From the NCBI RefSeq assembly GCF_001642955.1, contig NZ_LWSK01000005.1:1-64000 (forward strand): 64,000 nucleotides of DNA, in the 5' to 3' direction. Positions 8,921 through 39,861 of the stretch are shown here, in pieces (position 1 is the stretch's first letter; each line of letters opens with the position of its first letter). The notes beneath the pieces were generated by a model. It saw only the letters and a list, made by a program, of their open reading frames with translations. It searched no databases and had not been told where the DNA came from. The translations under genes were made by a program, and so were the position numbers. This DNA comes from Rubripirellula obstinata. Lineage in GTDB: Bacteria; Planctomycetota; Planctomycetia; Pirellulales; Pirellulaceae.

Positions 8921-9691
8921 CTAGCGTACCGCCATCACAAAGAAGCCAGCAGCGATTCCGAAGAGAACAATCGACACGAGGATCGGTTTCCAAATTCCCT
9001 TGGCGCTGCGTTGCTTGTAGATGGTAACCGCCATCGACACGAGAGCCCCCGCCCCGACCACTGCAAACGCGACTCCGCAAAGTTGCAGGAACAATTCCAG
9101 GAAATCAAAGTTGCCTTCGCCATCAAGACGCTTGGCTTGATTGACCGCCAAGACGCCGATCACGATCCCGCTGCCCAGCATGAACAACACCAATGCCAAT
9201 CCCCACCAGGGCATTCCGGCACCGCGGACCAACTTGGCCTGCATTTCGGCCGCCTTGGACATGTCGGATTCAGCCTTCATCAGCGCGAGTTCACCATGGC
9301 TGATATCGACCCCCGCGGTTCTGTGAGCGTCCATCTTGGTGCCATGCTCGCGATGAAAACCGCACTTCGTGCAAAGCACAGAATTCAATTTCATTTCGGC
9401 AGCACAACTCGGGCACACAGCGGCAACTGTTTTCGAGAACCCTTCTTCGTCAAACAAATCGTCCAGACCGCCGCTCGCTGGGGCGGCAGCAGGCATTGGC
9501 CTGGCTGCGGCCGGTTTGCCCTGCGGAGTGCTAGATTTGCTCTGCGGAGCGGCCGGTTTACCCTGCGGCGCAGCCGGTTTCGCGGGCACTTTTATCACTG
9601 AGCCGCAACCGGGGCATTTGACCGATTTGCCAACCATTGCGTCGGGGATGTTGAGTGCTTTGCCGCACTGGCATTTAATCTGAACTGGCAT
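8921..9691 (-). CDS. Zinc-ribbon membrane protein
   Basis: A 256-residue protein. The N-terminus has a zinc-ribbon pair (CQCGKAL and CPGCGSVIKV, residues about 8-34), followed by a Pro/Ala/Gln/Lys repeat linker (APQGKPAAPQSK type), and a second CxxC pair (CPSCAAEM and CTKCGFHREHG) at about residues 95-115. Three hydrophobic segments fill the second half (around 165-190, 205-230 and 238-254). This architecture, zinc ribbons plus transmembrane helices, is common in planctomycetes but has no assigned function. It lies immediately upstream of the FAD/Fe-S oxidoreductase with a 14-base gap, so the two may form an operon. Confidence 0.8.
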   Translation of the reverse strand: MPVQIKCQCGKALNIPDAMVGKSVKCPGCGSVIKVPAKPAAPQGKPAAPQSKSSTPQGKPAAARPMPAAAPASGGLDDLFDEEGFSKTVAAVCPSCAAEMKLNSVLCTKCGFHREHGTKMDAHRTAGVDISHGELALMKAESDMSKAAEMQAKLVRGAGMPWWGLALVLFMLGSGIVIGVLAVNQAKRLDGEGNFDFLELFLQLCGVAFAVVGAGALVSMAVTIYKQRSAKGIWKPILVSIVLFGIAAGFFVMAVR

Positions 9692-9776
9692 CGGAGCTGA
9701 CGAATAGGGAAGAAGCGAACGAAGTTCAAAACGTTGGTCGCAGCATGTCTCAGTAAGCTGCTAGATCGCCCACAGT

Positions 9777-9950
9777 TTACTTCGAAGCCTTGATTTCTGC
9801 TGCCTCGGTCTCCAAGTTCTTAATCTGATCTTCCAGCTCCTTCAACTCAGATGGATCGTCGGCCTGTTCGCGAGACCCAGCCAGACGAGGTCGGAGCGTT
9901 TGAAGCTTTTTGTTGATAATGTCGAGACGTTTCTTTGCTTTCTTGTCCAT
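9777..9950 (-). CDS. Small coiled-coil protein
   Basis: A 57-residue, highly charged helical protein (begins MDKKAKKRLDI) with heptad-like spacing of Leu and Ile and many Lys/Glu residues. The ATG at 9950 is preferred over the 9977 start because AGGA lies about 6 bases ahead of it. Orphan small coiled-coil proteins like this are common in planctomycetes; no function is known to me. It lies upstream of the zinc-ribbon gene, with an 85-base gap. Confidence 0.6.
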   Translation of the reverse strand: MDKKAKKRLDIINKKLQTLRPRLAGSREQADDPSELKELEDQIKNLETEAAEIKASK

Positions 9951-10165
9951 CAGGATCCTCGGAACAGCGTTTAACACAATTGGTCATGATAACCGATCCG
10001 GACCACGGCTAACACGGGCTCAAACCCTCAGCCAGGGTAACTCAGTTTTTCTGCTTCAGGACGGTTGACCGAACCGTCGAAACCGTCATGGTGGGGCCGC
10101 CACGCTGGATTCGTCTGCTATTTGACGATCGCCCTGACTTTACGCTCTTCACCCATCGCCTTTTT

Positions 10166-11530
10166 ATGAAGCGTATGATGATCACGAACCGTTCCATGAC
10201 TCGTCGATACGTCATCGCGTTGCTCTTAATCGCAGCGGTTCTGATACTGTCGCATACCTTGCTGCTGGCGCAGATCGCGCGAACGGAAAGTGACGGATAC
10301 ATTATCAACGTCAGCGGGATGCAGCGAATGCTCTCGCAGCGGATTGGGTTGATGGCCATCGAATTGACTCGTAACGATGACTTGGAAACATCGTCGGCGT
10401 TGGCTGCAAAGCTGGAAGATGCCCATTCGATGATGAAGTCGAATCAGTCTGAGCTGAATCAGGCTAACGAACAATCGATGACGCCGGAGATCCAAGATCT
10501 GTACTACGGTCAATCCAACTTAGACCAAAGGGTCACCGACTATCTGTCGCTGGCAGAACAATTGTTGAACCAACACCAGCAGCAGCCTGATCAAAAAGAA
10601 CAACAGAAGCAAACCGCACAGAAAATTGTTGAAGTCGCCCGCAACGGATTGCTTGACGAGTTGGATGCAGTCGTCACTCAGTATCAAAAAGAGTACGAGC
10701 AGCGAATCGTTCTTTTTCGCAGAGCCCAGTTGGCGTTTCTCGCGATTGGTTTGTTCTTGCTGGCGATTGAAGCGGCTTTCATTTTTCGACCAATGACTCA
10801 AAACGTTTCTCGGACGATGTCTAGCCTAGAAGACGCGAATGCCGAGTTGCGTGAATTCGCATACCGAATTTCGCATGACCTAAGAGCTCCGGTGGCGTCT
10901 TCGATTGGGTTGTCCCAAATGATTAGCGATTCATTGAAGGAAGGCGATACTGATTTTGCGGCCCAGGGGATTGGTCGCGTCCAGGGAGCTATGAAAAAGC
11001 TTGATGAACTGATCGGCGATATCATCACTGTCACCAAGAATAGGCACCTAGAGGTTGAACCAGAGCTGGTTGATGTTGGATTGATGATCAATGAAATTTT
11101 AGAGTCGCAATCTCATCTGCCGGGATTCGAACGCCTGGATATCGAGAAAGACATTGATCGGGACGCATTTGTGGCGACAAAAAGAATCATGTTGAGTCAA
11201 ACACTCGAAAACCTGATCTCAAACGCGATTAAATACTCGGACCCGGACAAGTCATCGCCCAAGTTGAAGGTGAAGGCGTCTGTTCAGGATGGACAGATGA
11301 GGATCGAAGTGGCGGATAACGGCATCGGATTCCCCATTGAAAGCCAAGATCAAATGTTCGGCATGTTCAAACGGTTTCATCCACGACAATCTTTCGGCAG
11401 CGGGCTCGGTTTGTATTTAGTAAAGCAGAACGTCGATGCGATGCATGGCACGATCCGCTATACTCCCCTATCCGAAGGTTCCTCTTTCGTGATTCAGGTT
11501 CCTCAGCTTTCGACTGGAGTTTTGTCTTGA
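10166..11530 (+). CDS. Membrane sensor histidine kinase with PilJ-like sensor domain
   Basis: A 454-residue kinase. A transmembrane helix at about residues 13-33 is followed by a periplasmic helical domain containing the SGMQRMLSQRIGLMAIEL motif of type IV pili methyl-accepting (PilJ) sensors, like those found in nitrate/nitrite sensors. A second helix lies at about 190-210. The H-box is YRISHDLRAP with the phosphoacceptor His237. The N-box (LENLISNAIKYSDP), G1 (VADNGIGFPIE) and G2 (GSGLGLYLVK) are all present, so the ATPase looks active. The frame is open to 10088, so the start is uncertain. Its TGA overlaps the TTG start of the response regulator, a translationally coupled pair. Confidence 0.9.
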   Translation: MKRMMITNRSMTRRYVIALLLIAAVLILSHTLLLAQIARTESDGYIINVSGMQRMLSQRIGLMAIELTRNDDLETSSALAAKLEDAHSMMKSNQSELNQANEQSMTPEIQDLYYGQSNLDQRVTDYLSLAEQLLNQHQQQPDQKEQQKQTAQKIVEVARNGLLDELDAVVTQYQKEYEQRIVLFRRAQLAFLAIGLFLLAIEAAFIFRPMTQNVSRTMSSLEDANAELREFAYRISHDLRAPVASSIGLSQMISDSLKEGDTDFAAQGIGRVQGAMKKLDELIGDIITVTKNRHLEVEPELVDVGLMINEILESQSHLPGFERLDIEKDIDRDAFVATKRIMLSQTLENLISNAIKYSDPDKSSPKLKVKASVQDGQMRIEVADNGIGFPIESQDQMFGMFKRFHPRQSFGSGLGLYLVKQNVDAMHGTIRYTPLSEGSSFVIQVPQLSTGVLS

Positions 11531-11922
11531 CGCTTAAAACGGTCCTGCTGGTGGAAGATTCGCCCGACGATCAGTTCATGGGCAAGGAGATGTTTCGCCG
11601 AGCGATCAAAGACGTCGAGGTGGTCTGTGTGTTTGATGGAAGCGAGGCGCTGGAGCGGTTGGCTGAAGAAGATTTTCGCCCAGATGTCATCCTGTTGGAC
11701 ATCAACATGCCTCGCATGAATGGTTTGCAGTTTCTGCAAAACTACGGCCGAAAGAATGATCCAACGATTCCACCGGTCGTCGTAATGCTGACGTCTTCGG
11801 AGCAAGCATCGGACAAGGCGGAATCGATGGCTTACGCTTGCGTAAAACATTACTTCGTCAAACCGCTGCAAAAATCCAACATCGAAGCAATCGTCGAAAT
11901 GCTCGATGCGATTGACGGTTAA
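11527..11922 (+). CDS. Single-domain response regulator (Rcp1-like)
   Basis: A 131-residue receiver domain with no output domain. It has the acidic pair at Glu10/Asp11 (VLLVEDSPDD), the phosphoacceptor Asp58 (VILLDINMPRMNG), the Thr switch residue (VVMLTSSEQ) and the conserved Lys in FVKPLQK. The VEDSPDDQF start and long loop resemble Rcp1-type regulators that pair with phytochrome-like kinases. It starts with TTG at 11527, overlapping the TGA of the histidine kinase, so the two form a matched pair. With no DNA-binding domain it must act by protein contact or phosphorelay. Confidence 0.93.
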   Translation: MTLKTVLLVEDSPDDQFMGKEMFRRAIKDVEVVCVFDGSEALERLAEEDFRPDVILLDINMPRMNGLQFLQNYGRKNDPTIPPVVVMLTSSEQASDKAESMAYACVKHYFVKPLQKSNIEAIVEMLDAIDG

Positions 11923-11927
11923 TTAGT

Positions 11928-11985
11928 GTCGCCTTTCGCTCCGCGAAAGTAGCGAATCCGCTGCTTTCGCGGAGCGAAAGGCGAC
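11928..11985. repeat. Palindromic repeat (family D)
   Basis: Arms 11928-11949 and 11964-11985 are perfect reverse complements over 22 bases with a 14-base loop; the arm begins GTCGCCTTTCGCTCCGCGAA. It lies 6 bases after the response-regulator stop. The same element, slightly diverged, lies inside the MlaF-MlaE gene at 13571-13633. Between convergent genes it could serve as a terminator. Confidence 0.95.
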
Positions 11986-12100
11986 TATAAAAAGTCGCAC
12001 GTTCCTTAGTCGCTTGCAAGCGTAGGCCGTGTTGTGTTTCCCAATCGCTTTATGATTGATTGTGCCGACGGTCCTTGGTATCGCGTGAACAACAACTGAG

Positions 12101-12163
12101 GTAGCGGATCTCGCAGAGAGATTCGGCCGTGCGGTAATCAAAAGTCTCTGCGACTTTCGCTAC
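12101..12163. repeat. Degenerate palindromic repeat (family D-like)
   Basis: GTAGCGGATCTCGCAGAGA at 12101-12119 pairs imperfectly with AGTCTCTGCGACTTTCGCTAC at 12143-12163. The outer GTAGCG/CGCTAC ends match family D elements and the element in the SGNH gene at 39548-39660. Confidence 0.7.
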
Positions 12164-12211: not shown

Positions 12212-13861
12212 TTAAAACTCTAGCAGTGCGATCATAAAGTGAACGACCAACACGTACAGCGTGCTCCATAGCACCGTCGCAGTGATCGCTTGACTAACAT
12301 CGCTGGCGGAACGCTTGGGCGAAATGCCGCGGTAGTAACCGATGACGCCGCTGCCTACGCCGCATAGCAAGTTCTTTAGCATTACCCAACGGAATGCTTC
12401 CGAAGCAAGCAAGCCGTCTGATTCGCTGATGCGGGCATCGAAGTGCTGACGCCAAAAAAAGTCGCCGATCTCGGGGTGCGTTACCTTGAACGTCACCGCA
12501 CTAATCCATCGGGCTGATTCAAACGCCAACCACTCCAACCATGGGACCGCGACCACCATCGCAGCCACAATCGGGATCAGCAAATAAAGTCGCGGCGCGA
12601 TGCCAAAGGTTCGCATCGCATCGACGCTGCCGCTGTATCGTTTGACGCCGACATCCGCGGCAACCGCTGCACCGCACCTTGCCGCGATCAACACGGTTGC
12701 CAGCACCGGCACCAAGACGCGGTACAACGCGAACCCGATCGCGGATAACAGTTCGTCGATCAACAACGGTTGGGTGTAGACGCGAAACGGCAAGAATCGG
12801 AATGTAAAGTAAGTGGTCGTGAAGCCCGCGATCAGGCCCGCGATAATCAGGTAGATCGATGCCGAAATCCCGCCAACCAGTTTCAAGTAATGCAAGAAGA
12901 AACGTGTTGCCCATTTCCATGACGGGAAATTTGGACGAAGCGTCCAAGGCAACGTTACGCCGGCCAAAACAGCGTTCCCGCTTTGCGTCAAGAACGACTC
13001 CAGGCGTGCCATGGTTCGACGCGCTATCGCTGGCCTTCCCTGGGACTTGCTTGGGGTGGGCAGCGTCACGGCGGTAATGCGGCGTGGAACTTGTTGCCAA
13101 CCCTGACGTTCAATTCGCTGCAATGACTTGGATTGCGAATCAAACAAAATCACTTCGTCCGCGATTCCCAACATCGTTTCGTAATCATGCGTGACGATCA
13201 CGCTGGTGCGACCAAATTTACGATGGGTTTTGGCGATCAATGATGCGACTTGCCGACCAGTCGCTGCGTCCAGCCCCGAACTGGGTTCGTCGTAAAGCAC
13301 CACATCAGGATTGGCTGCCAAGGTTCGTGCGATTGCCAATCGCTGCTTCTGGCCGCCGGACAAAAACGCAACCGGAGTCAACGCTGGAACTCCCAACTCC
13401 TCAAGCCACTGCAGCGACGTCAGCGATTCTGGTTCAGTGGTTGCGGTGTTTTTTCCCGCAGCGTGGTCGATCGCAAATTGAATGTTTTCAGCCGGCGTCA
13501 ATTCGTCGAACAACGCGAACTGTTGGAACACGACACCGACGTTACCGCCACTGTTCGGGCTACCTTTTAATAGTCGCCTTTCGCTCCGCGATAGTGTGTC
13601 TTTTCCGCTACTTTCGCGAGACGAAAGGCGACTGTCAGATGTCTTCAGTCGAACATGCCCCGTCCAATGAATCGAAGAGTCCTGTTTGTCGATTAGCCCC
13701 GCGATCATCCGCAGCAGCACCGATTTGCCAACGCCGCTAGCACCGACGATCACGGTGATTTTACCCGCTGCGATCGAAACGTCCGTCGCCTGCAACAGCA
13801 CCATGCTGTTGGTTTCGATCTGCAGGCCGTCCAGATGCAGGGTGGTGGAGCTTTCGGGCAT
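12212..13861 (-). CDS. MlaF-MlaE fusion: ABC ATPase joined to MCE-type permease
   Basis: A 549-residue protein in which an ABC ATPase (residues about 8-265) is fused to an MlaE-type permease (about 285-549). The ATPase has Walker A GASGVGKS (40-47), a Q-loop VVFQQF, the signature LSGGQKQR, Walker B VVLYDEP and the H-loop VTHDYE. The permease has five or so hydrophobic helices with the AARCGAAVAADVGVKR cytoplasmic loop typical of MlaE/TrigalactosylDG-1 proteins. In most Gram-negatives these are separate subunits that move phospholipids between membranes. ATG at 13861 overlaps the upstream TGA by one base (TGATG). Residues about 77-98, between the Walker A helix and Q-loop, are encoded by an inserted palindromic repeat (13571-13633). 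Confidence 0.9.
   Translation of the reverse strand: MPESSTTLHLDGLQIETNSMVLLQATDVSIAAGKITVIVGASGVGKSVLLRMIAGLIDKQDSSIHWTGHVRLKTSDSRLSSRESSGKDTLSRSERRLLKGSPNSGGNVGVVFQQFALFDELTPAENIQFAIDHAAGKNTATTEPESLTSLQWLEELGVPALTPVAFLSGGQKQRLAIARTLAANPDVVLYDEPSSGLDAATGRQVASLIAKTHRKFGRTSVIVTHDYETMLGIADEVILFDSQSKSLQRIERQGWQQVPRRITAVTLPTPSKSQGRPAIARRTMARLESFLTQSGNAVLAGVTLPWTLRPNFPSWKWATRFFLHYLKLVGGISASIYLIIAGLIAGFTTTYFTFRFLPFRVYTQPLLIDELLSAIGFALYRVLVPVLATVLIAARCGAAVAADVGVKRYSGSVDAMRTFGIAPRLYLLIPIVAAMVVAVPWLEWLAFESARWISAVTFKVTHPEIGDFFWRQHFDARISESDGLLASEAFRWVMLKNLLCGVGSGVIGYYRGISPKRSASDVSQAITATVLWSTLYVLVVHFMIALLEF
13571..13633. repeat. Palindromic repeat (family D) inside a coding frame
   Basis: Left arm 13571-13594 and right arm 13608-13633 form an imperfect inverted repeat matching the intergenic element at 11928-11985 (GTCGCCTTTCG at both ends). 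Its 63 bases are a multiple of three and are read through in frame in the MlaF-MlaE gene, adding the Ser/Arg-rich segment DSRLSSRESSGKDTLSRSER between Walker A and the Q-loop. Confidence 0.9.
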
Positions 13862-15144
13862 CAAAGCGGTTCCGCCGAATCTGGATTGGCCAGGTACACA
13901 ACCGGATAGGGCATCGATGCCTTACTTCGCCGGATCACGATCGGTGAATCTGCTGGTTGTCTGGTTTGGCGAGGTCGCGCGATCACAAAACGCCGATCCT
14001 TGCCTAGAATTTGTTGACGCAGCACCCGTGCAAAGTTCGCGTTGATTCCGGTTTCGGGTGTTCCAAACAATTCGTCGCCGATTTCACGCACCATGGGCTC
14101 CACCCGATCGCCGACTCGATCCAAAATCTGTTTTGCTTCATCGCTGGTCCAAACCGATTGCCAAACGTCACGAAGCGAATCGTTGTCGATCAGTGTTTCT
14201 CTTAGGATTGTCGCCAGCAATTGTTTTGCGGCTGGATCGCTGGACAGTTCAGAGGCAACGTTCCCCAATTCGGATCGCACACGCGAATTCCTGGCAATCC
14301 CTTGAACCGTTTTTTGAACCGTATCCACCAATTCGTCAGTGTGTGATTCCAACACCGGCAATGCTTCCTCCTGAACAAACCGATCCCACTCGTCTTGGAC
14401 CAGATCTTGCTTTGGCAGCGGAGATTTGTCGTAGACCGCACGCCAACCAAACCGCCATAGCGAAGCACGATCCCAAAGCTCGCGGCCCATGTCTTCCACC
14501 ACGGGTTGAGCGTGTTTGCGGACGATCGGCAGGATCTCTTCACGCGCAAGTGGAATTAATGTCTCACGAACAACTTCTTCGTTCCAGCGATTCGCCAAAT
14601 CATCGATCTCGCCACGATGCCGAGCCGCTGATTCTTGAATAGCCAATTCGATCACCGGCATCGATTGCCGAAGGCTTGTTTTTAGCAGTGGCAAGATCGA
14701 CTCGGCCATCTCTTCGCCATGCTGTTTCATCAACAGTGACACCTTGGCCGAAATTCGATCACGTTGCTGTGCCGGCAACATCGTTTGAATGACTTCATCG
14801 AGTCGCCCGCTTTGAAAATGTGAGCTGAAATCAAAACCACTTGCAGCCTGATCGTCATACCAAGCCAATGAAATCGACCCCGGTTCGGAACCCAATTTCT
14901 GAACCGAACCCACTTGAGTCCAATGGTCGAAAGAAGTCTGCAGAAAAACGGGATCACCGACTCGCAATCTTGAAGATTCATCCTTGATCTCGACGTTAAC
15001 TGCGGGATCAAAGAGGGTTTGCACGGTCGTTTGTGCAAACTCAGCCAACGAAAGATCGGAACCGCGGGACAAACCAATCACCGCACCCACAGACGCGATC
15101 GCCCAGCCAGCGAGTCCCACGTAGAAGTTAGTCGATCGATTCAT
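13861..15144 (-). CDS. MCE-like membrane-anchored protein (MlaD partner)
   Basis: A 427-residue protein with one N-terminal transmembrane helix (about residues 8-26) and a short beta-rich domain (about 40-95) whose VGDPVFLQTS...VGSVQKL pattern resembles an MCE domain. The rest is a long, charged, mostly helical region without further membrane segments. By position it is the periplasmic substrate-binding partner of the MlaF-MlaE fusion: its TGA stop overlaps the ATG of that gene. Domain similarity is weak by eye, so the MCE call rests partly on context. It follows xth with a 9-base gap, so xth, this gene and the transporter are likely one transcript. Confidence 0.65.
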   Translation of the reverse strand: MNRSTNFYVGLAGWAIASVGAVIGLSRGSDLSLAEFAQTTVQTLFDPAVNVEIKDESSRLRVGDPVFLQTSFDHWTQVGSVQKLGSEPGSISLAWYDDQAASGFDFSSHFQSGRLDEVIQTMLPAQQRDRISAKVSLLMKQHGEEMAESILPLLKTSLRQSMPVIELAIQESAARHRGEIDDLANRWNEEVVRETLIPLAREEILPIVRKHAQPVVEDMGRELWDRASLWRFGWRAVYDKSPLPKQDLVQDEWDRFVQEEALPVLESHTDELVDTVQKTVQGIARNSRVRSELGNVASELSSDPAAKQLLATILRETLIDNDSLRDVWQSVWTSDEAKQILDRVGDRVEPMVREIGDELFGTPETGINANFARVLRQQILGKDRRFVIARPRQTRQPADSPIVIRRSKASMPYPVVYLANPDSAEPL

Positions 15145-17168: not shown

Positions 17169-17746
17169 TGGTCGGGTAAAAGCAGTTTTCGAGGTAACGG
17201 AACAGTCAAAGCTTACTCGGTCATTCCACATTAAAAAAGGATCTCAGCAGGCTGCTTGCTGGTCGAAGCTCTGATCAAGAATGCCATCTCAGCGTCCGGC
17301 CACAACGGCGAACCCAAGAGCTCGATCTTGACCCTCAAGGGTGCAGGCACGCTCATCGGCAGACGTTTTTTTGTAGGCCGTAGCGAGCCATAGCGAGTTA
17401 CGGCAATTCGCGCACCGCCGTAACTCGCTATGGCTCGCTACGGCCTACTTTCAGGGGTCGTGTGACAAGTTGACAACGACACATTTTCATCAGCCCACCC
17501 TGACCCGCCACCCCTGACCCGGCACCCTGTACATTTCTCTCTTTCCGTGAAACACCACTTTCGCTAAAGTCCGCTAATCGACTCGCTGGACTTGCGAGTT
17601 TTACGAGACTTTTATGAGCTTTTTCGCGTTCCAGTTCCCGCGGCAATCCTTTGCCACTGGCGGCGAGAATTTTCAAAAAAAGATTTACCGGAACGGACTC
17701 ACGCAGGCGATGGAATCGTTTGCACTGGCCAGGGAGGAGCCAAGCT
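17169..17746. other. Divergent intergenic region with a palindrome
   Basis: This 578-base stretch separates dusB (-) from the large ATPase gene (+). Apart from the perfect palindrome at 17373-17448 it shows no gene. GGGAGGAGC at 17732-17740 is a strong ribosome-binding site for the ATPase gene, unusual in this window, where most starts lack one. Confidence 0.6.
17373..17448. repeat. Perfect 32-base inverted repeat (family C)
   Basis: Arms 17373-17404 and 17417-17448 are perfect reverse complements over 32 bases with a 12-base loop. The arm starts GTAGGCCGTAGCGAGCCATA. The inner arm contains its own TAGCGAG repeats. A diverged relative lies at 61498-61570. Confidence 0.95.
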
Positions 17747-20700
17747 ATGCTGCTGGATCGAATCGATATTGACGCACACGGACCGCTTAACACTGTTGAG
17801 CTGGGACCATTTTCAGAACACTTGAACGTCGTTTGTGGCCCCGAAGGTTCGGGGAAGACCGCCATTGTGCGGTTTGTTCGCGATTCGCTGGTCGACCGCG
17901 ACTATCCGCTGGGCATGATGAGTTCGTCCAGCGGGCGAATCGTGTGGGCCGATCGCAACGGCATCGTGCATTGTCGCCGTGAAAAAGACGGCACCGCAAA
18001 GGGCCGTCGCACGATCGAAATTGAATCACGCGGCCATACCTCTGTGTACAGCGATTCGGTGTACGGCGATTCGTTTGGCTCGGGTGACGTCACTCGCTCA
18101 TCAACCGGCGGCCCATCGACCGATTGGGTCAATCAATACACCGGCAATGGTCACTACCATGCCGCAGCCCAGCGATCGATTCAGTTGCCTGAATCAATCG
18201 TTGATGGTGTCATCACTGACACCGCCGTAACAAGTGTCCAACGTGTCGTTTCCGCATGCGTCCGCAGCGGTCTCGATTCGCATGAAACTTACAGCAAGCT
18301 GCCACTGTCAGCGAACGGCAGTGAGAATTATCGCAGTGAGCATCATCGCAGTGAGAATTATAGCAGCGAAGATTATCGCAGCGGAGATTATCGTTACGAC
18401 GACCAACGAGTTCTCCGTGCTGAACTGGCGAGCATTGAATCCGAACTGTCGCGTCTCGGGGGCATTGATCAGGTTTCGAGCCAGCTTGAATCATCGACTC
18501 GGCGTGAAGCGTTGATCCGGCGTCGTGACGAATTGTTGGCGTTGGCGAATCATCGCCCTTACGCAAATCATGCCGCACTGGATCATGGCTATGACTCAAC
18601 CTACGTTAGTCAGCAACTGGCTAGCCTTCACGATCAAACTCGTGAACTTCGATTCCGCCGCAGTGAATTAGCTCGCTGGATCGAAAACATTGATCGCCAA
18701 ATTGCAAGCCTTATGCATCACCGCGGTACCTATGGTTCTGATGTGTACGGTGCGACTGGCGTTTACAGTTCATATCAAGATGGACGTGGCCTTTACAACG
18801 AACAGCTTCGCCGCCAACTAGATGATCTTGATGCTCAAATGATCAAGTGGCAACACGCGTTGTTGGAAGTTCGCGGAGTCCGTGAATCAATCACTGCGTC
18901 GGCTGGCACGTTCAATTCGTCCCGTTACGATTCGATGGATTACCAAGACCTACACCGAGCCCGGTACAACGGTTTCTTGGACGCAGCGGATCATTATGAC
19001 GTTCGACATCCTTGGGATGCCTCGGCTTGGTATCGTCAAGACGATCGGCCTTATCAGTACATTGACGAACTAGACGCCCGCTTTGAATCGGCTTTGCGTC
19101 ACGTTGACGAATTGCTTCATCGCTATTCCGCTGCTGATCAGGTAGCGACTCCGTGGTACCACGCGACCGATCCTGTGACGGCTAACGTTGCGGCAAGCAG
19201 CATCGGCGACCGATCGCTTTGCCACATGCTCCGATCGATTCGACATGACCTGCAATCCATGTCGGGCACGATGCCATGGCATCGTCGTGATCCTGTTTCG
19301 GCTCCGATTCCTGCATCGGGTTCATGGCACCAATCGATTTCGGCGCGCCACGAAGATCTGTTGGCCAGCGAACGTTGGTTGGCTGCATCAATCGAAGGCA
19401 TCAGCCGTCATCGGGACGAATTGTTACGTCGTCATACCGTCGCTCCGAATCCTGCCGCGACTCATTCTGAATACCGAACCGGCGCAGACCTGGCGGCATT
19501 GCAATCGGAACGAATCGCACGCGTGACCGAACTGCAAAACGTCAGCACATCGCTTGACTCGACACTTCGTCAGGCATTCGAGCTGCGACGATCGATTCGT
19601 GCGTTGCCAGTGTTGGATAACGCTTTCAATCACAACAGCACGCTGGATCCAACAATCCGTGGCTACACTTCGTCATGGGCAGACCATGATGCGATTCGAG
19701 CAGAGCTTCATCAGATTGATCAGCGTTTGTCTTCATGGTCAAGAATCGGATGGTTGCAAAACCGTCGCAACGAAATTCGCCGTCAACTGCAAACCACACG
19801 ACGACCTGTCGCTACGGGGTCGCCGCTTTCGGATCTGGCCAGCACTTGGTTGGTACGACTTTCCGGTGGCCGACTAACGCGGGTCAGTTGGGATTCAGCC
19901 GCTCGCGTTGTAACGATCGCGTCGCGTGATGGCGGTCACCGTCAAGAAGATCATTGCAGCGGAGCCGACCGAGCGATTTCGGTACTGGCTGTGCGAATGG
20001 CCGCGGGCGAATTGTTGCATCGCATCGGTCGCCCTGTGCCGTTGGTGCTGGAAACGCATCGCGAACTGCTTAACCAAGCGCAACCATTGCAAACACCGAC
20101 TTACTCGGACGCTGGTTTCTATTCGGAACGCGGGTACTACGAAAACGGCGATCTAGGCCGGAACAATCACCCCATCGCTGCGGCGCTTCACGATTACGCA
20201 AAGGGTGGTCGTCAAGTCGTCATGTTGACCAGTGATCGTCGTTTGGCAGACCAGTTGGGACGCGTCGGTGCTCGTCAGTACGAAGTGTTTACGAATCGGA
20301 CCGAGCACGCTCATCGACCGATTTGGCGGCCTAACTATTCGCCAGAGAAATACGTTGGCCCTCACCCGCATACCAGCGGGCGATCATCGCTAAATGGAAT
20401 CGATGACATCAATCGCGATTTCGATATGGCTTGGCGAGAAGCTTACGGATTCTACGACAATCATTCGCATCACGGCGGAAGCCCTGTCGCCCGAACCGAT
20501 TGGGCGACCGACGGAACCGACTATCGCGATGGTTTCTACTTTTCGGATAGTTACACCACCGCCGGGGATAGCTCGTCAGATCAATCATTTCACAATCGGG
20601 AGGGCGGCTCCTTTCGTAGGGAGCCTTCGTTTCGTGACCAGCAGTCTGGAGTTCGTCCAGAAGCATTATCACGGTCAGCAGCTACCGCCGTTTCAGCGAC

Positions 20701-22315
20701 CGCTGTTTCAGCGAACTCCATTTCAGCTACCAAGGCACCCGTCAGCCCGTTTTTCTTGACCGTCGATAGCCCGATCGATCAAGCTCCGTCGATTGACGCG
20801 GTCGCAGCGGCCCGACTTCGTGGGCTTAGCATCACGCACATCACTCACCTGATGCAACAAGACAGCAACAGGCTTGCTGATTCGTTGGGTCTAGCCGATG
20901 TCGATGCTCGCACGATTCGCCGTTGGCAATCAGAATGTCGGCTGGCATGCCGCGTTCCTCACCTCCGCGGCTTTGACGCTCGTGTTTTGGTCGGGTGCGG
21001 AATCCAAACCCCCAGCGAACTTGCTTCGATTCATCCCGTGGAATTGCTGCAGCGAGTCGAATCGTTTTTAGCGACCAATCGCGGACAGCAGTTATTGCTT
21101 AGCGGAAGCAGTCACGAACTGTCGCGACTGACAAGCTGGATCGCGACCGCCAACTCGACTCATGGCGAGTATTCGTTCGATAGCGATCGCTACGAATACG
21201 ATCAAGACGGCCGACGCATTCGACGAAGCGGCGACCGAACGCGTTTGCGAGACAACGATCGAGATTTTGAAGGACGAACTCGACGACGTGTTGCTGGAAC
21301 TTCGGGATCGGAAGGCTTTGGCGATCGTAGCCGACGATCTTCCAAGAGCCGTAGTCGTTCTAGCAGTCGTCGTGACCGCGAATATCGCGATCGCGACCCT
21401 GGTCAGTCTCGTCGATATGGAATCAGGACCGCCGACGATGAAAATCGTGACGACGAAAATCGTGATGGCGTTGTTGATGGGCATGTCGCCGATCGCAATG
21501 GCGATTATGCCCGTCGCAGTCGTTCGGGCGGTGCCAATGGCTCCGGTTCAGGACGTGGTTTTGGCTCGGGCTCAGGCTCGGGATCAGGACGCGGACGCGG
21601 AAACGGATCACGCAGTGGCAGTGGTAGTGGATCGGGCAGTGGATCGGGCAGCGGACGCTCACGCCGATCTTCATCGCGTTCCAATGGCCGCGATCGCAAC
21701 GTCGTCAGCTATCGCAATCGCGAAAATTCAAGCCGCGAATACGCCGATCGCGAACCTCGTGAACGACGTGAATACGTTCGCACCGAACGGGAACCTCGCG
21801 CCGAACGTGAACCGCGCGCCGAACGTGAACCGCGCGCCGAACGCGAACCGCGTGAAAGCCAGAGCGGCGAACGTGAACTGCGTTTCTATCTGCAACGCGA
21901 CAGCCCCGTCGTTGACGCTCCGTCGATCGGTTCACGAATGGCCGCTCGTCTGGAAGCGATTGGGATTCACACCGTCAACGATTTGTTGATCGCCGATCCA
22001 GAAACAGTCGCCGAAGAATTGAACCACCGTCGAATCGATGCTGAAACGGTGCTGCAATGGCAACAACAGGCAACGTTCGTTTGCCGCGTTCCAATGCTAC
22101 GCGGACACGACGCCCAGCTTTTGGTGGCCGCAGAAATTACGTCCGCCGAAGAGTTGGCCGTCCAAGATGCTGGAGACCTGTTTGCACTGATCGATCCGAT
22201 CGCCCGCAGCAGCGAAGGCAAGCGAATCGTTCGCGGTGGCAAACTGCCCGACATGGAAGAAATTGTCGAGTGGATCAGCTACTCGCAGCACCACCGAGCT
22301 CTCAAAGCCGCTTAA
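17747..22315 (+). CDS. YhaN/SMC-like ATPase with two DUF4332 modules
   Basis: A 1522-residue protein. The N-terminus resembles the ATP-binding lobe of YhaN/RecF/Rad50 proteins (Walker A GPEGSGKT at 31-38). Long helical segments follow, with LxxxLxxL spacing. A second ATPase lobe has a degenerate signature (CSGADRAISVLAVRMAAGEL near 735-755) and a Walker B-like PLVLETHREL at about 764-773, with Glu where Asp is usual. Two DUF4332 (helix-hairpin-helix type) modules follow: residues about 1003-1131 and 1378-1522. They are joined by a disordered Arg/Ser/Gly/Asp/Glu linker with GS and EREPRA repeats. Such a layout suggests a DNA- or nucleoprotein-bound, structural-maintenance-type ATPase, but that is inference. 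The start at 17747 follows a good ribosome-binding site. Confidence 0.8.
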   Translation: MLLDRIDIDAHGPLNTVELGPFSEHLNVVCGPEGSGKTAIVRFVRDSLVDRDYPLGMMSSSSGRIVWADRNGIVHCRREKDGTAKGRRTIEIESRGHTSVYSDSVYGDSFGSGDVTRSSTGGPSTDWVNQYTGNGHYHAAAQRSIQLPESIVDGVITDTAVTSVQRVVSACVRSGLDSHETYSKLPLSANGSENYRSEHHRSENYSSEDYRSGDYRYDDQRVLRAELASIESELSRLGGIDQVSSQLESSTRREALIRRRDELLALANHRPYANHAALDHGYDSTYVSQQLASLHDQTRELRFRRSELARWIENIDRQIASLMHHRGTYGSDVYGATGVYSSYQDGRGLYNEQLRRQLDDLDAQMIKWQHALLEVRGVRESITASAGTFNSSRYDSMDYQDLHRARYNGFLDAADHYDVRHPWDASAWYRQDDRPYQYIDELDARFESALRHVDELLHRYSAADQVATPWYHATDPVTANVAASSIGDRSLCHMLRSIRHDLQSMSGTMPWHRRDPVSAPIPASGSWHQSISARHEDLLASERWLAASIEGISRHRDELLRRHTVAPNPAATHSEYRTGADLAALQSERIARVTELQNVSTSLDSTLRQAFELRRSIRALPVLDNAFNHNSTLDPTIRGYTSSWADHDAIRAELHQIDQRLSSWSRIGWLQNRRNEIRRQLQTTRRPVATGSPLSDLASTWLVRLSGGRLTRVSWDSAARVVTIASRDGGHRQEDHCSGADRAISVLAVRMAAGELLHRIGRPVPLVLETHRELLNQAQPLQTPTYSDAGFYSERGYYENGDLGRNNHPIAAALHDYAKGGRQVVMLTSDRRLADQLGRVGARQYEVFTNRTEHAHRPIWRPNYSPEKYVGPHPHTSGRSSLNGIDDINRDFDMAWREAYGFYDNHSHHGGSPVARTDWATDGTDYRDGFYFSDSYTTAGDSSSDQSFHNREGGSFRREPSFRDQQSGVRPEALSRSAATAVSATAVSANSISATKAPVSPFFLTVDSPIDQAPSIDAVAAARLRGLSITHITHLMQQDSNRLADSLGLADVDARTIRRWQSECRLACRVPHLRGFDARVLVGCGIQTPSELASIHPVELLQRVESFLATNRGQQLLLSGSSHELSRLTSWIATANSTHGEYSFDSDRYEYDQDGRRIRRSGDRTRLRDNDRDFEGRTRRRVAGTSGSEGFGDRSRRSSKSRSRSSSRRDREYRDRDPGQSRRYGIRTADDENRDDENRDGVVDGHVADRNGDYARRSRSGGANGSGSGRGFGSGSGSGSGRGRGNGSRSGSGSGSGSGSGSGRSRRSSSRSNGRDRNVVSYRNRENSSREYADREPRERREYVRTEREPRAEREPRAEREPRAEREPRESQSGERELRFYLQRDSPVVDAPSIGSRMAARLEAIGIHTVNDLLIADPETVAEELNHRRIDAETVLQWQQQATFVCRVPMLRGHDAQLLVAAEITSAEELAVQDAGDLFALIDPIARSSEGKRIVRGGKLPDMEEIVEWISYSQHHRALKAA
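18320..18394 (+). repeat. 15-base tandem repeat in the ATPase gene
   Basis: Five 15-base units (18320-18334 to 18380-18394) encode the five-residue repeat SENYR and its variants (SEHHR, SENYS, SEDYR, SGDYR). Units differ at a few bases each, so the expansion is not brand new. It lies between the ATP-binding lobe and the helical region, at about residues 192-216 of the protein. Confidence 0.9.
21785..21856 (+). repeat. 18-base tandem repeat in the ATPase linker
   Basis: Four 18-base units at 21785-21802, 21803-21820, 21821-21838 and 21839-21856 encode EREPRA repeats. Units 2 and 3 are identical, so their expansion is recent. Just upstream (about 21540-21660) a GS/GR-rich stretch has simple SGSG repeats. 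Together they form the disordered linker between the two DUF4332 modules. Confidence 0.9.
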
Positions 22316-38751: not shown

Positions 38752-39861
38752 CTACCGATTCTGGTTCTGAAGAATCGAAATAATCGCTTCCGCAACGATC
38801 TGATTGCCGGTCACATTCAAATGGCCTGATCCGATGCGACCGTTGTGAAAGCCGTGCGGCCATCGGTTTTGCTGAGCCGATTCACGCAGGCGATCGCGAA
38901 GATCGATCACTGGGATCTGTTCAGATTTCGCAGCGAGTTTTAAACGCGTGAACGATTCCTGTTCGTTGTCTGCGAAGATTATTTTGTTTCCCATCACGCG
39001 TGGTAATTGCGGTGCGTAAACGATGGCGACTGGTTGATCGGTGGTTTGCTTGATCGAGCGGAGGGCTTTGTTCCAGTCGGTGGATTGCGACCATTGCTGG
39101 AGTCTAGGCTTTAGCCGATTCGGTTGTTGATCGATCTTGGGCGTAGCGGCTAAAGCCTGGACTCCAACATTAAATCGCAGTCGTCGTGGTGTGACGCCAT
39201 CGTCTTGGGTAAGAACATTTCGTGCGGCATGGATCGCGAAGTCGGGCAGCCAGCTAACGACCGCGTTCGTCTTTGGAAGTTCAGCCGTTTTCAAAATTGG
39301 ATCGGCAGCAAATGCCAAGTCGGACAGTTCCGTGATCAGAAATAGGTGCGCAGAGACACCGAGTTCTTTTTCAGCGAACGGAATTTGCTGCAGCCAATCG
39401 CCGGCGGTATCTCCGCTGCGAGCGAGTGGTATGACGGACGCTTGGCCCGCGACTTGGTCGTTTGCAAGCGAGAAGATTTTCTGTTCGTCGTCGACGCAGA
39501 CGCCTTCGGCTTGTGAGTCACCCCACAGAGCGACGACCGAAGGTAGCGTAGCGGAAGTCGCCAAGACTTTCGGCGCTGTGACTATCGACGCTGTGACTTT
39601 CGGCGCTGTGACTATCGACGTTGGGATGCTGGTGCCGAAAGTTTTGGCAACTTTCGCTACGGGGTGGTGGCCCACCATGCCGAGGTCGCCGATTTTTGAG
39701 GTCGCATAGCCCTCGCTACGCCAGCGATAGGATTCGCCGGCGGGAAGTGTCAGTACACCGCGGTTGATTTCTCGCGGCAGGTAGCTGCGGACAAACAGCG
39801 GCGACGTTAGCCAGATGACCGCGGTGCCAGCGACGAATCCGATGGTCCAACGCGCGATCAT
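38752..39861 (-). CDS. SGNH-hydrolase-like acetyltransferase partner (AlgJ/AlgX-like)
   Basis: A 369-residue protein with an N-terminal membrane anchor (about residues 6-24). WGDSQAEG (Ser116) is the block I nucleophile and GSGHLNVTG near the C-terminus gives the catalytic His, the SGNH pattern of AlgJ/AlgX. It is just upstream of the MBOAT gene (7-base gap), so the two probably O-acetylate an exported polysaccharide. Residues 68-105 and about 232-255 are encoded by two palindromic repeats inserted in frame; the first carries a tandem SIVTAPKVTA repeat. Both lie outside the motifs. Confidence 0.75.
   Translation of the reverse strand: MIARWTIGFVAGTAVIWLTSPLFVRSYLPREINRGVLTLPAGESYRWRSEGYATSKIGDLGMVGHHPVAKVAKTFGTSIPTSIVTAPKVTASIVTAPKVLATSATLPSVVALWGDSQAEGVCVDDEQKIFSLANDQVAGQASVIPLARSGDTAGDWLQQIPFAEKELGVSAHLFLITELSDLAFAADPILKTAELPKTNAVVSWLPDFAIHAARNVLTQDDGVTPRRLRFNVGVQALAATPKIDQQPNRLKPRLQQWSQSTDWNKALRSIKQTTDQPVAIVYAPQLPRVMGNKIIFADNEQESFTRLKLAAKSEQIPVIDLRDRLRESAQQNRWPHGFHNGRIGSGHLNVTGNQIVAEAIISILQNQNR
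39098..39166. repeat. Palindromic repeat inside the SGNH gene
   Basis: Arms 39098-39117 and 39147-39166 are reverse complements over 20 bases with one mismatch; the arm is TGGAGTCTAGGCTTTAGCCG. The 69 bases are read in frame and encode the segment QALAATPKIDQQPNRLKPRL of the SGNH protein. Confidence 0.92.
39548..39660. repeat. Palindromic repeat with internal tandem repeat inside the SGNH gene
   Basis: Arms 39548-39574 and 39634-39660 are reverse complements over 27 bases with three mismatches (outer ends GTAGCG/CGCTAC). Between them a 30-base unit is repeated twice: 39566-39595 and 39596-39625. The whole element is read through in frame, adding residues 68-105 of the protein. Confidence 0.92.

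Follow-up and report, generated by a model that had tools for sequence, protein, structure and literature searches.

The gene for a fused ABC transporter of the MlaF-MlaE type in Rubripirellula obstinata contains, within the part encoding its ATPase, a palindromic stretch of DNA, which raises the question of whether a mobile repeat has been turned into protein sequence at this locus or whether the segment is an ordinary loop of the protein family. The DNA analyzed was a stretch of 64,000 nt (NZ_LWSK01000005.1, positions 1-64,000, forward strand), hereafter the window, whose relevant features are collected in Table 1. The explanation that we favor, and hold with good confidence, is that a copy of a repeat family, here named F1, was inserted in the MlaF-type ATPase part of the gene and was tolerated in a permissive loop. 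A palindromic element amplified in R. obstinata would have entered the fused gene, would have kept or regained the reading frame without a stop in the frame used, and would have provided about 21 Ser/Arg-rich residues to a loop between Walker A and Q-loop whose length already varied. Insertions of a second family, F2, in a tsaB-like gene and in the SGNH/GDSL-like gene of the window were counted as parallel cases.

Table 1. Repeats of the window and the genes that hold them.
Feature	Position	Strand	Remarks
Head-to-head dimer of REP-like F1 hairpins (GTCGCC...GGCGAC, 60 nt)	13571..13634	.	In coding sequence
Fused ABC ATPase and MlaE permease, MlaF-MlaE type	12212..13864	-	PF00005 at residues 24-194, PF02405 at residues 338-546
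Intergenic F1 copy with right outer inverted repeat	11921..12008	.	F1 model match
Palindrome of a family other than F1 (GTAGCG...CAGAGA)	12101..12163	.	Family members listed
F2-type (GTAGCG...CCAAGA) inverted dimer, in frame in SGNH/GDSL-like gene	39548..39660	.	Within residues 67-108
SGNH/GDSL-like gene holding the F2-type insertion	38752..39861	-	Lipase_GDSL_2 E 0.00076, below curated cut-off

The F1 family and its mobility

The 22-base arm of F1, GTCGCCTTTCGCTCCGCGAAAG, has four matches in the window, compared with 0.00 expected from 100 shuffles. The genome-wide search for this arm that had been proposed in an earlier, sequence-only reading of the window yielded, with three mismatches allowed, 250 matches across the genome (6.58 Mb), and none with the reversed pattern used as control. 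With no more than one mismatch, the count is 211 in R. obstinata and ranges from 0 to 4 among 21 genus mates. When a covariance model of F1 was run against the genus mates, 17 of these 21 genomes were without any match and, counting both strands, G016 had 31, G021 11, G012 5 and G006 4. Thus, F1 is amplified in the R. obstinata lineage, yet not entirely confined to this species, since the model matches four of its genus mates. The 31 matches in G016 are weaker than those of R. obstinata (best E 8e-8), which suggests a diverged sister family in that genome.

The anatomy of the family was studied in a sample of 100 genome stretches, picked mainly for holding copies, plus the window (1.825 Mb scanned, with 189 of the genome's 250 arms at up to three mismatches). 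It contained 98 F1 sites, a few of which may be due to chance, since the reversed arm gave 4 matches at up to five mismatches in 1.00 Mb, and one single-arm site among them carries 5 mismatches. Plain inverted (+/-) pairs account for 89 of the 98 sites, with a modal length of 58 nt. Each half-unit forms a GTCG-tagged hairpin of a 7-bp stem and a 3-nt loop, and the whole is an inverted head-to-head pair of REP-like hairpins, GTCGC-CTTTCGC-TCC-GCGAAAG. Across 57 aligned copies, the G, T and C of the tag are invariant and the next G is conserved in at least 90%, and two pairs of the stem are altered on both sides yet still paired, in 3 and 5 of the 57 copies, respectively.

Longer matches bear outer inverted repeats (GGAACG...CGTTCC), and on this basis the full-length element measures about 98 nt. 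The 3-nt sequences flanking the element are identical in 19 of 30 scorable copies (9 TTA, 9 TAA and 1 TCA), these being the copies among 91 paired sites in which both end motifs were readable; in 2000 shuffles, identical flanks averaged 9.0 and reached 16 at most. Flank identity is confined almost entirely to this length (2, 0, 19, 0, 0, 0, 0, 0 and 0 copies for lengths of 1 to 9 nt) and looks like a 3-bp TWA target duplication. Together, the target duplication and the outer inverted repeats indicate that F1 is MITE-like in its behavior, around a core that resembles a REP. Indeed, terminal inverted repeats and target site duplications, by which MITEs are recognized, are both found in F1, and the likeness to bacterial MITEs extends to the absence of an own gene and to a length of about 100-120 bp. 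F1 departs from MITEs in that its REP-like dimer core is common to forms with different outer ends, in that no autonomous partner was found at the DDE_Tnp_1 and Y1_Tnp loci, and in that the copy within the gene is without clear outer repeats. In some other copies, a 62-nt core lies within a different outer palindrome. Separately, a palindrome of about 300 bp at C1:141053 begins with the F1 outer end and then diverges, and six further places start in the same way and continue differently.

The sequence-only reading had located the same element between genes at 11928-11985, and this was borne out with the correction that these positions are the core of the longer intergenic copy in Table 1, which lies beside the stop of an upstream response regulator gene and is without the left 16 nt of the full element. 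That reading had also taken the palindrome at 12101-12163 for a degraded copy; this was rejected: even at E up to 1, these positions are not matched by the F1 model, and the palindrome belongs to a separate, GTAGCG-tagged family.

The core of F1 invites comparison with the GTAG REPs, of which several families have been described in R. baltica, also a planctomycete, and among which GTMG tag variants are listed (Di Nocera et al., 2013; PMC3733652). As described there, GTAG REPs are high-copy, mostly extragenic short hairpins with a 6-9-bp stem and a small loop, they carry a GTxG tag, they occur mostly as head-to-head inverted dimers, some of them inside genes, and the dimers of some species lie within longer palindromes. 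F1 shares the hairpin geometry, the high copy number, the predominance of inverted pairs and the mostly extragenic placement, and its tag, GTCG, is of the GTxG form without being GTAG; it differs from them in the outer inverted repeats and 3-bp duplications of many copies, and in that no linked RAYT was found.

These likenesses bear on the origin of the insertion, because F1 could be a RAYT-mobilized REP pair and not a DDE-type MITE, in which case the dimer of about 63 nt would have inserted alone. We regard this origin as possible rather than probable. Hairpin, tag and head-to-head arrangement agree with it in the terms of PMC3733652. The lack of clear outer repeats in the gene copy also agrees, and so does the presence in the genome of a RAYT above the curated cut-off: of 11 Y1_Tnp matches, five were covered by an NCBIfam scan, and one of these, on contig C33, passed it. 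However, the C33 RAYT is surrounded by a different REP family, and no F1 arm (up to five mismatches) was found within 1.5 kb of any of the 11 Y1_Tnp matches; the RAYT linkage of GTAG-type REP dimers is thus not seen in F1. Moreover, 3-bp target duplications are not expected of Y1 transposases, and duplications such as those of F1 point to a DDE-type enzyme. Among the 7 DDE_Tnp_1 and 11 Y1_Tnp loci of the genome, with 1.5-kb flanks, no autonomous element with F1-like ends (TNA-GG type) was found. F1 would have been moved by a transposase acting in trans. The surroundings of the C33 RAYT (about 9500-11100) contain GTAGGCCGTAGCGAG...TTACGGC repeats and have the appearance of a classic REPtron. 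At C244:37270, an IS200-type transposase is surrounded by arrayed CCGGTGGC...GCCACCGG hairpins, with a spacing of 83 bp between several of them.

The copy within the MlaF-MlaE gene

A covariance model derived from 57 distinct copies, this one not among them, scored the sequence at 13571-13634 at 62.8 bits (E 1.9e-15). A chance palindrome is ruled out by this match and by the comparison of arm matches with shuffles. The arms occupy positions 13573-13594 (1 mismatch) and 13611-13632 (3 mismatches), and the core of the copy exceeds the modal F1 length by 2 nt. Positions 13571-13633 comprise 63 bases, that is, 21 codons without a stop, which encode residues 77-97 of the minus-strand open reading frame (SRLSSRESSGKDTLSRSERRL), with Ser or Arg in 12 of the 21 positions. 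This segment sits between the motifs that we take to be Walker A (residues 40-47) and the Q-loop (within 110-115), and the presumed signature, Walker B and H-loop motifs are also present in the ATPase part. The coding signal is strong on either side of the copy, in the same frame as used. The central claims of the sequence-only reading, namely that a palindromic repeat is read through in an MlaF-type ATPase domain and that between Walker A and the Q-loop it contributes some 21 residues rich in Ser and Arg, with the motifs intact, are thereby upheld. An AlphaFold model made from a two-row alignment had a mean pLDDT of 47.6 and was not used.

The flanks of the gene copy were compared with the outer repeat of F1: the left one is weakly alike (p about 0.02) and the right one not clearly so (p 0.18), and neither target duplication nor outer inverted repeats are recognizable in them. 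Since the insertion of a canonical element (98+3 = 101 nt) causes a frameshift, the gene copy must be a bare dimer, a shorter form, or one with compensating indels. The copy has also diverged from the F1 model (58-63 bits, versus up to 87.5 bits for the best copies elsewhere in the genome), and the insertion is therefore probably not recent.

Orthologs and the loop

The ortholog set comprised 21 rows, 20 of them distinct (L031 and L056 are the same in sequence) and one, L053, cut at its N-terminus; a paralog and fragments (L057, L058 and L059) were dropped. Measured between the same anchors, the loop that holds the segment has 38 residues in R. obstinata, 10-22 in 14 of the 21 rows and 31-41 in the other 7, and these seven longest loops group together on one side of a branch (93/92). 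Without the 21 residues of the insertion, the R. obstinata loop would have 17, which falls within the range of the short ones. The nearest relative in the tree (L048, of G001), which joins the R. obstinata gene with 100/100 support, has a loop of 11 residues. No match to the F1 model, at E up to 1, was found in any of the 21 ortholog loci. The longest perfect stem in the loop DNA is 12 bp in R. obstinata and 4-6 bp in the ortholog rows, and the folding energy of the R. obstinata loop (-0.36 kcal/mol per nt) is barely beyond that of the lowest ortholog (L046, -0.33). The search for an empty site in a closely related genome found none, the best full-length ortholog having 62% identity; the G001 ortholog has 66% identity over residues 99-549. 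As a separate observation, the seven relatives with long loops (L037-L043) appear to have acquired them independently at the same place, without a palindrome.

The alignment with orthologs had been proposed in the sequence-only reading, with the proviso that unrelated loops of the same length in orthologs lacking the repeat would make the segment an ordinary family loop. Its outcome was mixed, as unrelated loops of comparable length do occur in one clade, while the inserted DNA is nevertheless an F1 repeat and most orthologs, including the nearest, have short loops. Given the unrelated loops, the insertion site is a permissive loop of the family, already variable in length among orthologs, notwithstanding the repeat origin of the DNA inserted there. 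From the aligned sequences, this loop has probably grown at least twice, once through repeat insertion.

The effect of the insertion on the protein admits several readings. The Ser/Arg segment, or a hairpin in the mRNA, might alter ATPase activity or translation and be kept by selection, as might be suggested by the retention of a diverged copy whose loop DNA, with its 12-bp stem, can still fold. We consider this improbable, given that the loop is variable and mostly short in orthologs, and that the three in-gene insertions found in this genome (see below) sit in unrelated proteins. Slightly less credible still is that the insertion, located as it is in a catalytic domain, inactivated the transporter and that the open frame is a leftover: despite the divergence of the copy from the family, frame and ATPase motifs are intact, and the coding signal persists on both sides. 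As for the segment being an ordinary version of a length-variable, Ser-rich family loop with a palindrome arisen by chance, the long loops of seven ortholog rows speak for it, but the match of its DNA to a genome-wide repeat that is absent from all ortholog loci, its much longer perfect stem and the short loop of the nearest relative make it highly implausible. Under the preferred explanation, a tolerated F1 insertion, the MlaF-MlaE protein with its additional residues would be made and working, and the survival of the insertion at this place may reflect purifying selection against insertions elsewhere.

In-gene insertions elsewhere and their relation to known elements

Only the MlaF-MlaE copy was clearly inside a gene among the 98 sampled F1 sites. 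A test for coding signal on both flanks could score 93 of these sites, 3 of which look intragenic, although just 49% of random positions were called genic at the threshold used, so the test may miss in-gene copies. Two of the three intragenic-looking sites start 5-6 nt past the stop of the upstream gene. The sites C233:20905, C38:4727 and C24:11163 were rejected as intragenic, the upstream gene ending 5, 6 and 28 nt short of the element core, respectively; the downstream gene at C233 and at C24 has an open frame that extends back over F1, where N-terminal read-through may occur. C255:1623, where just one flank carries coding signal, was also discarded. At the single arm C148:3061, both flanks carry such a signal, though a weak one (2.3 and 3.3), and this arm may lie within a gene. 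In-gene placement of F1 is exceptional.

At a loose threshold, the GTAGCG-tagged family yields 54 clusters, of which 34 comprise two or three arms and 20 a single one, several of the latter looking like chance. Its main form, F2, reads TWA-GGACCGTCGG...CCGACGGTCC-TWA and measures 120 nt. Of 148 F2 candidates, 40 were scored before 30 copies were fetched, and identical 3-nt flanks were found in 16 of the 29 fetched copies that were scored; the lengths from this scoring are not independent measurements, the right end having been placed at a fixed distance where the end motif is absent. The coding-flank test could be applied to 27 of these 30 copies, fetched genome-wide, and flagged a single one. 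This copy (contig C34, 2383-2502) has an altered right end and TTA on each side, and lies in a gene that we read as tsaB-like, with PF00814 over residues 37-142. The flanking TTA belongs to a direct repeat, GGAGCTTA, that exceeds the customary three bases. An F2 element of 120 nt plus a 3-bp duplication amounts to 123 nt, exactly 41 codons, and the frame stays open here; all 19 aligned orthologs lack the insertion.

The F2-type copy in the SGNH/GDSL-like gene of the window is altered relative to the F2 form. In an alignment of 21 rows representing 17 genomes, the site holds no more than a short segment in G001 and several other relatives, and unrelated inserts in others, among them the best-scoring ortholog. 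Three further F2 candidates flagged as in-gene (C112:70777, C245:31704 and C262:19420) were single arms without a matching opposite arm and were put down to chance. Under a test that requires an open frame and two-sided coding signal, no in-gene copies were found in 55 clusters of the GTAGGCCGTAGCGAGCC family or in 12 clusters of the CCGGTGGC...GCCACCGG family. Altogether, three in-gene pairs were found (one F1 and two F2 or F2-type), and all three are in frame, with a chance of about one third for each; this carries little weight as evidence, and the same outcome would be expected from purifying selection.

The sequence-only reading had likened the insertion to the Rickettsia palindromic elements (RPEs), with which REPs have also been compared in the literature (PMC3733652). 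The comparison holds in that a palindrome is read through in frame, without a stop, and lengthens a conserved protein by some 20 residues or more. It fails in that the sequence differs and F1 ends in GTCGCC...GGCGAC and not in CGTC, the end given for RPEs in that source, and in that in-gene copies are a rare exception in F1. That reading also knew of no case in planctomycetes. Beyond PMC3733652, available to us in part, no paper on intragenic repeats in planctomycetes was found, and to this extent the statement stands; it has to be set against the GTAG-type REPs of R. baltica and the REPs inside genes of several species, in other phyla, which that source reports together with the amino acids they encode. 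Read-through of F1 is a rare but recognized kind of event and not a new mechanism.

A broader proposal, tentative and one that we rather doubt, is that some of the composite REP-MITEs of this genome act as protein-inserting elements, as a free-living analogue of RPEs that seeds new loops. Its members would be the three in-gene copies, F2 in the tsaB-like gene, F1 in the MlaF-MlaE fusion and the F2-type dimer of the SGNH-like gene. Whatever the standing of this proposal, the insertions add planctomycete cases with repeat-free orthologs to the short list of mobile palindromes that became protein sequence; in one of them, the tsaB-like gene, the element is complete, in frame and bordered by a direct repeat. 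The surviving insertions are found where orthologs already differ in length, and this, along with the repeat-free orthologs, makes the gain of loops through mobile repeats testable. Apart from these insertions, the window also contains, at 17651-22315, an open frame of 1554 codons with long repetitive stretches rich in Ser, Arg and Gly.
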